Shown: one piece after another, positions 19,860 to 23,112 of the stretch
How the letters are laid out: every line of letters starts with the position of its first letter
Position numbering within the stretch: the first letter of the stretch is position 1
Origin: Jannaschia helgolandensis
GTDB lineage: Bacteria > Pseudomonadota > Alphaproteobacteria > Rhodobacterales > Rhodobacteraceae
Direction: 5' to 3'
NCBI RefSeq assembly: GCF_900109285.1
Contig: NZ_FNZQ01000001.1
Location: 1,269,001 to 1,333,000 of the forward strand
Length of the DNA: 64,000 nt
Translations under genes and position numbers: made by a program
The notes under the pieces: generated by a model
Databases searched by the model: none
What the model saw: the letters and a program-made list of their open reading frames with translations, nothing else
What the model was told of the DNA's origin: nothing

Positions 19860-19980
19860 CGTCCCGGCACCGTTATGTCATGGGCTTCGCGCCCCGTTCT
19901 AAAACTCTGCGGTAGCAGCGCCTCGCCGACGCCATGCCGACGATCGCCCTGCCAGATCTCGGCTGCCCAAAAATTCCGTC

Positions 19981-21071
19981 TCATGCCGGTCCCCCTGTGC
20001 CAAATATCTGCTCCAGATCGCTCATGCTCCGCAAACGGCGAGAGCCGGGGTAAAACGGCGAGACTGCGGCCCGACCCAGAAGCCGCCGGTAGTATGCGGA
20101 GCCGTCGGCATGCTGCCCTCGCCCGGTCACATATTCCAGCCCCTCAAGGCCGCGCGTGATCGGAAAGTGCAGCAACACCCCACGCTCCGACCCAAGCGGA
20201 AGGACGCGATTCATGGCATGGGCACCCCCATAGAACCGAAGCCCGGTCTGCCACCGCACAAGAGGAACCTTGGTCAGGTTGAGAGGCGGCATCGCGCCGC
20301 GTGATCGCGTAAGCCCCCGCCAGAGGCCCGCCGACACATGTGCTGTCGAACCGGGGCGATGGTTCCAGCGACGGTGCAGACGGCGGGCGATCCGAGCCAT
20401 TGCAGTTGGTGCCTCGTCAGAAAAGAGCCGCTGCCGCATTCCGCCGAGAACATGCATCGCGGGGATGGGCCAGTTTCTGCGGAACCGGGAGGGCGCCTGC
20501 TCCATCCATGTGGAGGCAGGATCGAGCGTCGGGCAGTCGAAGAAGGGAAAGGCATCTGTCAGGGAGCCGCCGTGATATCTGTCAGGGAGCCGCCGTGATA
20601 GACGTGATCGGTCAATGGGGCGTCGGCGTACATGTCGAGCATGACGGTATAGAGCGCTGCAGCGCTTTCCGCTTCCAATGTGCCGATCAGCTCGGCGAGC
20701 GACCTTGACGGCCAGCCGTGCCAGACCAGCAACTCATCCACGTCAGGGGCCAAAATCCAGCGGCCCGCCGCGACGCGGTCGAGCGCCTGAGATCTCCATT
20801 CGCGCTTGTGCTCTTTGTATGTCGAGTTGTCACGCGGACGCAGGACGGTCACATCGGGTGCAGCAGCCAGAATGTCGGCGGTACCGTCGTCGGACCGATC
20901 ATCGACGATCAGGAAAGCGATACCATCGGACGACGCGCCTGCCGCGCGGTAATGATCGAGGAAGGCAGGCAGAAGGTTGGCCTCGTTATGCACCAGGACG
21001 ATAGCCACGACCGTGCCGTCCGCCGTCCGGTCGGGGCCGATCAAGTCGAGATGGTCGGTGAACGCGGTCAT
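19981..21071 (-). pseudogene. Family 2 glycosyltransferase disrupted by a 23-bp tandem duplication
   Basis: From ATG 21071 the frame encodes a family 2-type transferase N-half: VVAIVLVHNEANLLPAFL, FLIVDDRSDDGTADIL and APDVDELLVW, i.e. the nucleotide-sugar Asp motifs. It stops early at 20559 after HGGSLTDITAAP. The downstream half continues in another frame to 19981. The break is exactly at two adjacent copies of a 23-base unit (20554-20599). With one copy, the reading frame runs through HGGSLTDAFPFFDCPTLDP into MEQAPSRFRRN and on to the stop, giving 355 residues, the size expected for the family. The C-half keeps coding character, so the mutation is recent, switchable, or a sequence or assembly error. 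The start overlaps the methyltransferase stop (ATGA). Confidence 0.85.
20554..20599. repeat. Perfect 23-bp tandem direct repeat inside the glycosyltransferase gene
   Basis: Two identical adjacent copies at 20554-20576 and 20577-20599, each beginning ATCTGTCAGGG on the plus strand. A 23-base unit shifts the frame by two bases per copy, so one copy gives an open gene and two copies a stop. Confidence 0.95.
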
Positions 21072-21667
21072 TCCGGTTTATGGAAGAGGACCGAAGAACC
21101 CGTCGCGGAAGCATCCCGAACACGCCACCATGATTTACGGTCGCGCACCGCGAGCAGGGGAGTGGAATAGAATTCGTGGCGCACTTCTTCCAGCTTGTCG
21201 AAAAGGAAGCGCAAGCCCGAGGGCCTGGCGCGCCAGTGATCGCCGAAATCCGGCCCCTCGTGAGTGGGATAGAGCCACGGCATCGCCACGTAGAGATGTC
21301 CGCCGGGTGCGACCAGGTCCGTAATATTCGGCGCAGCGATCCAGGGGCGTTCGATATGCTCGATGACGGACATGCAGAGCACCAGGTCGAACTGTCCCAG
21401 CTCCGGCATTGGCAGCATCAGGTCCCCCTGGATATAGTCGGGGTGGTCGTGGGGCCGCTGGTCAAGTGCGCGAAAGCTCGCGCCGGGAAAATAGTCGCGA
21501 TATCGACCGCCTTCCTTGTCCGTGGCGTCGGGCTCCGCGCCGAGGTTCAGGACGCTGCGCGCGCCCAGCCCCCCGCACATTTTGCGCAGCCAGTGGTTCT
21601 GCCCGGACCGGCATATGGAGACGCGCCGTCGGAAAGGTGTCAGAGGAAAGGTCTGCTTCATGGCCAT
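21068..21667 (-). CDS. Class I SAM-dependent methyltransferase
   Basis: A 199-residue methyltransferase of the Methyltransf_11/23 kind. SAM-binding motif I reads SVLNLGAEPD (Gly-poor form of E/DxGxGxG), the acidic loop DYIQGDLM follows, then FDLVLCMSVIEHIERPW, the usual motif II/post-motif, and PGGHLYVAMPW. The substrate is not evident; the linked glycosyltransferase suggests a surface glycan or glycolipid. ATG 21667 starts 4 bases after the scoB stop, and the gene's stop overlaps the start of the glycosyltransferase, so the set scoA-scoB-methyltransferase-glycosyltransferase looks translationally coupled. ATG 21661 is an alternative start. Confidence 0.8.
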   Translation of the reverse strand: MAMKQTFPLTPFRRRVSICRSGQNHWLRKMCGGLGARSVLNLGAEPDATDKEGGRYRDYFPGASFRALDQRPHDHPDYIQGDLMLPMPELGQFDLVLCMSVIEHIERPWIAAPNITDLVAPGGHLYVAMPWLYPTHEGPDFGDHWRARPSGLRFLFDKLEEVRHEFYSTPLLAVRDRKSWWRVRDASATGSSVLFHKPE

Positions 21668-21671
21668 CCGC

Positions 21672-22313
21672 TCAGACCAGCGTTGCGTCTGTCAGGGAAC
21701 GCAGTTCAGCCTCGCTTACGCCATCGGCCAGTTCCACGATGCGCAAGCCACCGTCGACGACATCCAGAACGCCCAGGTTGGTGATGATGCGGTCGACCAC
21801 CGCCTTGCCGGTCAGCGGCAGTGTGCATTCGCGCAGCACCTTCGACTGTCCGTGCTTGTTGGCATGGTCCATCACCACCACCACGCGACCGACGCCTGCC
21901 ACCAGATCCATCGCGCCACCCATCCCCTTGACCAGCTTGCCGGGGATCATCCAGTTCGCCAGATCGCCGTTCTCGGCCACCTCCATCGCGCCCAGGATCG
22001 CCATCGCGATCTTGCCGCCCCGGATCATCCCGAAGCTTTGCGCGCTGTCGAAATATGCGGTCTGCGGCAGTTCGGTAATGGTCTGCTTGCCCGCGTTGAT
22101 CAGATCGGCGTCCTCTTCGCCATCGATCGGGAACGGACCCATGCCCAGCATGCCGTTTTCCGATTGCAGCGTCACTTCGATCCCGTCGGGGATGTAATTC
22201 GATACCAGTGTCGGAATCCCGATACCGAGATTGACGTACCAACCGTCCTGCAGTTCCTGCGCCGCCCGTGCGGCCATCTGGTTGCGGTCCCAACCCTTGA
22301 TCGCGTCGGCCAT
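21672..22313 (-). CDS. scoB: 3-oxoacid CoA-transferase, subunit B
   Basis: A 213-residue beta subunit of a family I CoA-transferase. The catalytic Glu lies in the SENGMLGMGPF motif; GIGIPTLVSNY and MGGAMDLVAGVGRVVVVMDH are family hallmarks. With subunit A it transfers CoA from succinyl-CoA to acetoacetate or a related 3-oxoacid, feeding ketone bodies or aromatic and branched-chain breakdown products into acetyl-CoA. The start overlaps the scoA stop as TGATG, implying equal production of the two subunits. The specific 3-oxoacid (acetoacetate or 3-oxoadipate) cannot be fixed from sequence; the similarity to ScoB/AtoA favours acetoacetate. Confidence 0.9.
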   Translation of the reverse strand: MADAIKGWDRNQMAARAAQELQDGWYVNLGIGIPTLVSNYIPDGIEVTLQSENGMLGMGPFPIDGEEDADLINAGKQTITELPQTAYFDSAQSFGMIRGGKIAMAILGAMEVAENGDLANWMIPGKLVKGMGGAMDLVAGVGRVVVVMDHANKHGQSKVLRECTLPLTGKAVVDRIITNLGVLDVVDGGLRIVELADGVSEAELRSLTDATLV

Positions 22314-23020
22314 CAGACAGGCTCCTTCTTGGCGCGCACGGTGCGCTGTTCGATCCGTTTCTCGTGCTCGCCCTGCACGATCCGATGCACATAGATGCCC
22401 GGCAGGTGGATGCCGTCGGGGTCCAGCGATCCGGTCGGCACGATCTCCTCGACTTCCGCTACGCAGACCTTGCCGCACATCGCGGCGGGCGGGTTGAAGT
22501 TGCGCGCGGTCTTGCGGAACACCAGATTGCCCGTCGCATCCGCCTTCCAGGCCTTGACAATGGACAGGTCGGCAACGATCCCGCGCTCCAGGATATATGT
22601 CTCGCCGTCGAAATCCTTGTGGTCCTTGCCGTCCGCGATGACCGTGCCAACGCCGGTCTTGGTATAAAAGCCGGGTATGCCGCAGCCGCCCGACCGCATC
22701 CGTTCGGCCAGGGTGCCTTGCGGGTTGAACTCCAGCTCCAGCTCGCCGGACAGGTATTGGCGCATGAACTCGGCGTTCTCTCCGACATAGGAGGAGATCA
22801 TCTTCTTCACCTGCCGCGTCTGCAACAGGATGCCGATGCCGAAGTCGTCGACGCCCGCGTTGTTGGATGCGAACGTCAGGTCCCTGGTCCCGGCCTCCTT
22901 GATCGCCTGCAACAACAATTCCGGGATGCCGCACAACCCGAAGCCGCCGGCAGCAATGAACATCCCGTCCTGCAAAAGCCCGTCGAGTGCCTCGGCCGCC
23001 GATCCGAATACTTTCTTCAT
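22313..23020 (-). CDS. scoA: 3-oxoacid CoA-transferase, subunit A
   Basis: A 235-residue alpha subunit of a family I CoA-transferase. The glycine-rich GGFGLCGIPELLLQAI near residue 30 and the TFASNNAGVDDFGIG stretch are characteristic, and DLVFRKTARNFNP-type CoA-binding sequence (NLVFRKTARNFN) follows near residue 165. GGTGGG lies 5-8 bases before ATG 23020; the five extra in-frame residues upstream are unlikely. It forms a heterotetramer with ScoB in the cytoplasm. A hairpin about 95 bases upstream separates it from glyA. Confidence 0.9.
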   Translation of the reverse strand: MKKVFGSAAEALDGLLQDGMFIAAGGFGLCGIPELLLQAIKEAGTRDLTFASNNAGVDDFGIGILLQTRQVKKMISSYVGENAEFMRQYLSGELELEFNPQGTLAERMRSGGCGIPGFYTKTGVGTVIADGKDHKDFDGETYILERGIVADLSIVKAWKADATGNLVFRKTARNFNPPAAMCGKVCVAEVEEIVPTGSLDPDGIHLPGIYVHRIVQGEHEKRIEQRTVRAKKEPV

Positions 23021-23112
23021 TGTCCCACCCTGCATGAAGCTGTCCTTGCAGAAGGGTTATCCGGTCGTCCCGAGGCTTTCAATCGCCGCGCGGCGCTTGT
23101 GTCGGGCAGGAC

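Follow-up and report, generated by a model that had tools for sequence, protein, structure and literature searches.

Spontaneous sequence duplications in pneumococcal capsule genes were reportedly described by Waite in 2001 and 2003. In the passages of PMC4022640 that touch on the subject, acapsular serotype 8 pneumococci are said to have been obtained in continuous culture via tandem duplication in wchA (citing Waite 2003), three of that study's own isolates, one of them with a tandem repeat, are held to keep a potential for reversion, and reversion in wchA is expected at a frequency no higher than about 1e-5 when the insertion measures nine bp or less (citing Waite 2001, 2003). A second kind of described system is the simple-sequence-repeat contingency locus, of which the homopolymer site in kpsC serves as an example in the relevant section of PMC13410964. 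In the roseobacter group, a heritable biofilm-dispersal variant of the marine Phaeobacter inhibens carries a single-base duplication frameshift in anmK, according to the excerpt of PMC6224355 used here, and on that account tolerated frameshift variants in this group are unsurprising. The duplication treated in the pertinent part of PMC12054119 is a large one, unrelated to the case here.

The locus studied here lies in a window (the whole stretch of Jannaschia helgolandensis DNA that was analyzed) of 64,000 nucleotides, in which a 23-bp unit is tandemly duplicated within a gene for a family 2 glycosyltransferase (GT2). As in the pneumococcal capsule genes of Waite (2001, 2003), a short tandem duplication disrupts a polysaccharide-synthesis gene and can collapse again; the window gene differs in encoding another enzyme, in belonging to a Rhodobacteraceae-type host, in not having been seen in a capsule locus, and in being known from sequence alone. 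With the contingency loci it shares a reading frame set by copy number, but there are two copies of a long unit instead of many short ones, and the repeat is not kept in relatives. We consider a plain recent null mutation of the GT2 gene to be the best explanation, with a probability of roughly 0.77. The duplication is a kind of mutation already known, of which this is a fresh instance.

The two units, to which no strand is assigned, occupy 20554..20576 and 20577..20599; the first in window order is the second by transcription, and vice versa. They are identical and adjacent, which confirms the perfect 23-bp tandem duplication at 20554-20599 of the original prediction. The period-23 self-match of the array covers 24 positions, one base more than the unit, and chance alone would give about 2e-7 runs of 24 in the window (periods 7-399, independent-base model). 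A scan of periods 7-399 found no other perfect array of whole tandem units in the window with a run of at least 12, and Tandem Repeats Finder scored it 94, the next-best array in the window reaching 52. No further copy of the unit, allowing up to 3 mismatches, was found in the host genome searched.

The upstream part of the GT2 gene (20559..21071, minus strand, 170 codons) runs from an ATG at 21071 to a stop codon (20561-20559) that falls within the second transcribed copy. The downstream part (19981..20553, minus strand) is in a different frame, which is open from below 20736 to a stop at 19983-19981 and has its first start codon, an ATG, at 20505. The 23-base length of the unit is thus frame-shifting, as the different frames of the two parts show. 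Neither part contains a further stop codon, and the duplication is the sole defect seen in the gene. A Pfam scan of the upstream part gave PF13704 (9.2e-21) and PF00535 (3.3e-6). Its PF13704 (Glyco_tranf_2_4) score of 74.6 bits, against a gathering cut-off of 27.5, places it in the same family as the three intact relatives scanned (L005, L004 and L007, with 68.7, 70.0 and 74.3 bits), from which it differs in that its frame breaks after the domain; no single frame of the window gene reaches the C-terminal region of the relatives, the break being at the duplication. NCBIfam matched neither GT part (19984-20553 for the downstream one), and the downstream part had no Pfam match either (19984-20505); it does have homologues, despite the lack of a family match.

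Both halves had been claimed to keep coding character. By homology this holds for both, and codon usage agrees for the upstream part and only weakly for the downstream one. GC3 is 0.758 upstream and 0.705 downstream (0.688-0.854 in nine neighbouring genes). The codon-adaptation score of the upstream part (0.613) is close to that of the adjoining methyltransferase gene (0.616), and that of the downstream part (0.516) is slightly higher than the scores of its other frames (0.468 and 0.416) and below the range of the nine neighbours (0.575-0.749), seven of which formed the reference set. As this margin is small, the standing of the downstream part as coding sequence rests mainly on homology, and its low codon adaptation makes it possible that it has been relaxing for some time since the break. 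The break is nevertheless probably young, to judge from the lack of further stops in either part.

To compare the gene with its relatives, the upstream and downstream parts were each set separately against 103 loci. The upstream part was matched at 95 of these and the downstream part at 30, all of which match both. Six of the 30 rows are copies of the host's own locus, with the parts in different frames in every case (6/6), and the best matches of both parts lie in one frame in all 24 non-own rows. These 24 represent 20 distinct places (L099-L102 repeat L069-L072), and loci L005 and L070 carry an identical gene. In the ten rows that were aligned (L004-L008, L069-L072 and L103; nine distinct sequences) the frame is open from the start of the match through the site, and its stop comes 303-359 codons from that start. 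Some bases are covered by both the upstream and the downstream match in L004 (24 nt), L005 (18 nt), L069 (36 nt) and L072 (18 nt), which shows the block to be single there; no such overlap is seen in L006, L007, L008 and L071, where the block is too diverged. The prediction that the duplication breaks the frame of a family 2 glycosyltransferase gene therefore holds, the relatives keeping one unbroken frame, and the combination of intact homologues with a single defect is one expected of a recent pseudogene. Amino acid identity over the upstream part is 54% for Rhodosalinus halophilus, 53% for a Rhodobacterales MAG, 47% for Roseivivax isoporae, 46% for Maritimibacter sp. 55A14 and 42% for a Rhodobacteraceae MAG, and at about 54% even the best relative is too distant to date the break. 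The genome with the Rhodosalinus gene (G081) belongs to one family with the host. A DNA search of the genus (20 genomes) matched the host and, over 57 bases at 81%, one other genome, with no same-species or near relative, and a search of plasmid DNA gave no match. Solved structures searched by sequence with the intact relative A1 likewise yielded no match. The predicted fold of A1 (5 sequences) has a mean pLDDT of 59.2 and is reliable chiefly over the N-terminal 130 residues; the break site corresponds to about residue 160, within the poorly predicted part.

The GT2 gene comes second in a tightly packed pair of about 1.8 kb, which extends approximately over 19860..21671 (minus strand) and lies between scoB and an acetyltransferase gene. 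The first member encodes a SAM-dependent methyltransferase (21068..21667, minus strand; PF08241), with one sub-threshold hit in NCBIfam. Its stop overlaps the GT start (ATGA), and because of this overlap the two genes are probably translationally coupled. The upstream GT2 domain is generic, being found in 110 of 292 genomes (E <= 1e-15), and few genomes have the downstream part (6 of 292, E <= 1e-8), the host being included in both counts; at the latter threshold the downstream part is absent from the other 19 genomes of the genus. The methyltransferase was found in the host alone among 194 genomes, the same 19 genus members included, at E <= 1e-15, a threshold too strict to pick up more diverged copies.

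All 20 genus genomes have a scoB homologue, and the surrounding loci were fetched for 11 of the 19 that are not the host's own. At seven of the 11 the scoB match is followed after 11-34 bp by an acetyltransferase match, the corresponding gap in the window being 1815 bp; a transglycosylase gene follows scoB at three (L126, L127 and L135), and neither of the two was found after scoB at L134. None of the 11 loci shows a match at 1e-8 to either GT part or to the methyltransferase. From its absence at the genus loci examined, the pair is probably an accessory gain, most simply explained by horizontal transfer. The G+C content of the pair (0.635) is unremarkable next to scoAB (0.623) and the window (0.611), so that the case for horizontal gain rests on the patchy distribution.

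The sequence of events may have been as follows. A 23-bp segment within an accessory, probably horizontally acquired GT2 gene would have been copied once in tandem, perhaps by strand slippage or by end-joining, with hardly any homology (1 bp) at the site. Since 23 bases do not make up whole codons, translation would leave the frame of the gene in the second copy and stop there, giving a product of 170 residues that keeps the matched GT2 domain and lacks the C-terminal half of about 190 residues, presumably with loss of GT2 activity. Such a loss is probably tolerated, since the gene comes last in its tight two-gene set and is not found elsewhere in the genus. Like any perfect tandem repeat, the array could collapse at low frequency, which would make the off-state reversible in principle; this low-rate reversibility would be a by-product of the mutation and not a designed switch. 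A special hot spot, by hairpin or by homology, was considered and rejected: junction homology at the duplication is 1 bp, no stable hairpin is predicted (over 20540-20615 the DNA folding z-score is -0.62 on one strand and +0.92 on the other, and a single unit scores +1.00), and a 6-base CGTGAT that recurs 9 bases past the array is not located at the duplication ends. The short homology and the lack of a hairpin make a rare slippage or joining event at an unmarked site probable. A genome-wide excess of tandem duplications was rejected as well, as 395,000 readable bases sampled from the host contig held four arrays, whose units measure 9-12 bp, and no array with a longer unit. The locus illustrates clearly how a small duplication that may be reversible can silence an accessory gene, and it serves as a warning that draft-genome "pseudogenes" of this type may be one slippage event old.

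Other explanations have to be weighed against a recent null mutation. An assembly or sequencing error could have doubled the 23 bases, as might be suspected in a draft genome of 14 contigs and with a gene that has no other visible defect; some 129 kb, however, separate the site from the end of its 1.42-Mb contig, and short-read assembly collapses tandem copies more often than it creates them, so that we regard such an error as unlikely. The two parts might instead be made separately and form a working split enzyme, with a restart at ATG 20505. The downstream frame is open and this ATG lies about 54 bases beyond the stop of the upstream part, but the parts share one frame in all 24 other rows (a confirmed open frame in 10), a restart would drop residues that align in the relatives (the AFPFFD block), and by eye there is no obvious ribosome-binding site before the ATG, all of which leaves a split enzyme barely credible.

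The original prediction had also offered phase variation of a surface glycan. As a contingency switch, the copy number of the 23-bp unit would change often and toggle the glycosyltransferase in the population, as in the pneumococcal capsule genes. A unit length not divisible by three, perfect copies and a glycosyltransferase as target would all suit such a switch, and tandem duplication in wchA offers a precedent in the portion of PMC4022640 concerned. The same portion reports no fixed pattern of wchA mutations in that study's natural isolates, and its authors lean towards plain loss. Also against a switch, the unit is present in just two copies, the 395,000 readable bases sampled from the same contig have no unit longer than 12 bp, and no copy of the gene turned up in the remaining 19 genomes of the genus. 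An array survey covered 90 of 97 rows with the gene or GT2 relatives (seven Brucella/Ochrobactrum rows were left out), all of them distant relatives. Two (L046 and L077) have a perfect 12-bp tandem pair within an open frame that it leaves unshifted, and a longer or frame-shifting array occurs in 0 of 90; nor is the repeat kept or copy-variable among these rows. With two copies, no frame-shifting array in these 90 rows, neither a stable hairpin nor long junction homology, and no glycan-synthesis family in 13 other window proteins scanned, the claim of surface-glycan phase variation lacks support; evolved phase variation of the GT2 gene is not supported, and a frequently toggling switch seems quite unlikely. 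Should both alleles be mixed in one culture, capsule-type duplication switching would be extended to a very different bacterium and enzyme. A further proposal, that the duplication holds a newly gained methyltransferase and glycosyltransferase pair in an off-state which reverts at low frequency, with new glycan genes of this lineage being sampled by spontaneous tandem duplication and collapse, strikes us as highly improbable; if true, it would give surface heterogeneity without a dedicated repeat tract.

A role of the GT2 gene in a surface glycan is plausible by analogy with the cluster of one relative, Maritimibacter (L004), where the intact gene stands among genes for a GT4-type transferase, two sulfotransferases, an FkbM-type methyltransferase and a GT25 of LPS-biosynthesis type. 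At L136 (G122) the neighbours, judged by eye, are presumably a KDO transferase, an FkbM methyltransferase, a GT25 and a GT4. At L005 and L007 the gene lies among what we take to be sucCD and malate dehydrogenase genes, and from these surroundings it also occurs without a glycan cluster, as it does in the window, where no glycosyltransferase or other glycan-synthesis family was found in the 13 other proteins scanned.

The names used for the neighbours scoB, glyA, metG, CpaB, CpaC and NADK are our assumptions from the translations; Pfam gave PF01144 for scoA, PF01464 for the transglycosylase and PF14542 for the acetyltransferase. The scoA and scoB genes (21672-23035) adjoin in the window and in L126; a distance of about 1.1-1.4 kb separates them at 10 of the 11 genus loci fetched, a spacing that points to other small gains or losses at the locus. 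The genus relative L126 also has a short repeat tract of ACCCGT type (L126:7048-7098), lying between the genes for its CpaB-like protein and its transglycosylase. Finally, an 11-base stretch is common to the 23-bp unit and the end of scoB (21688-21698) and has three occurrences in the window, two of them in the array and the third in scoB; both scoB and the GT2 gene encode SLTDA there, and the likeness is probably due to chance.
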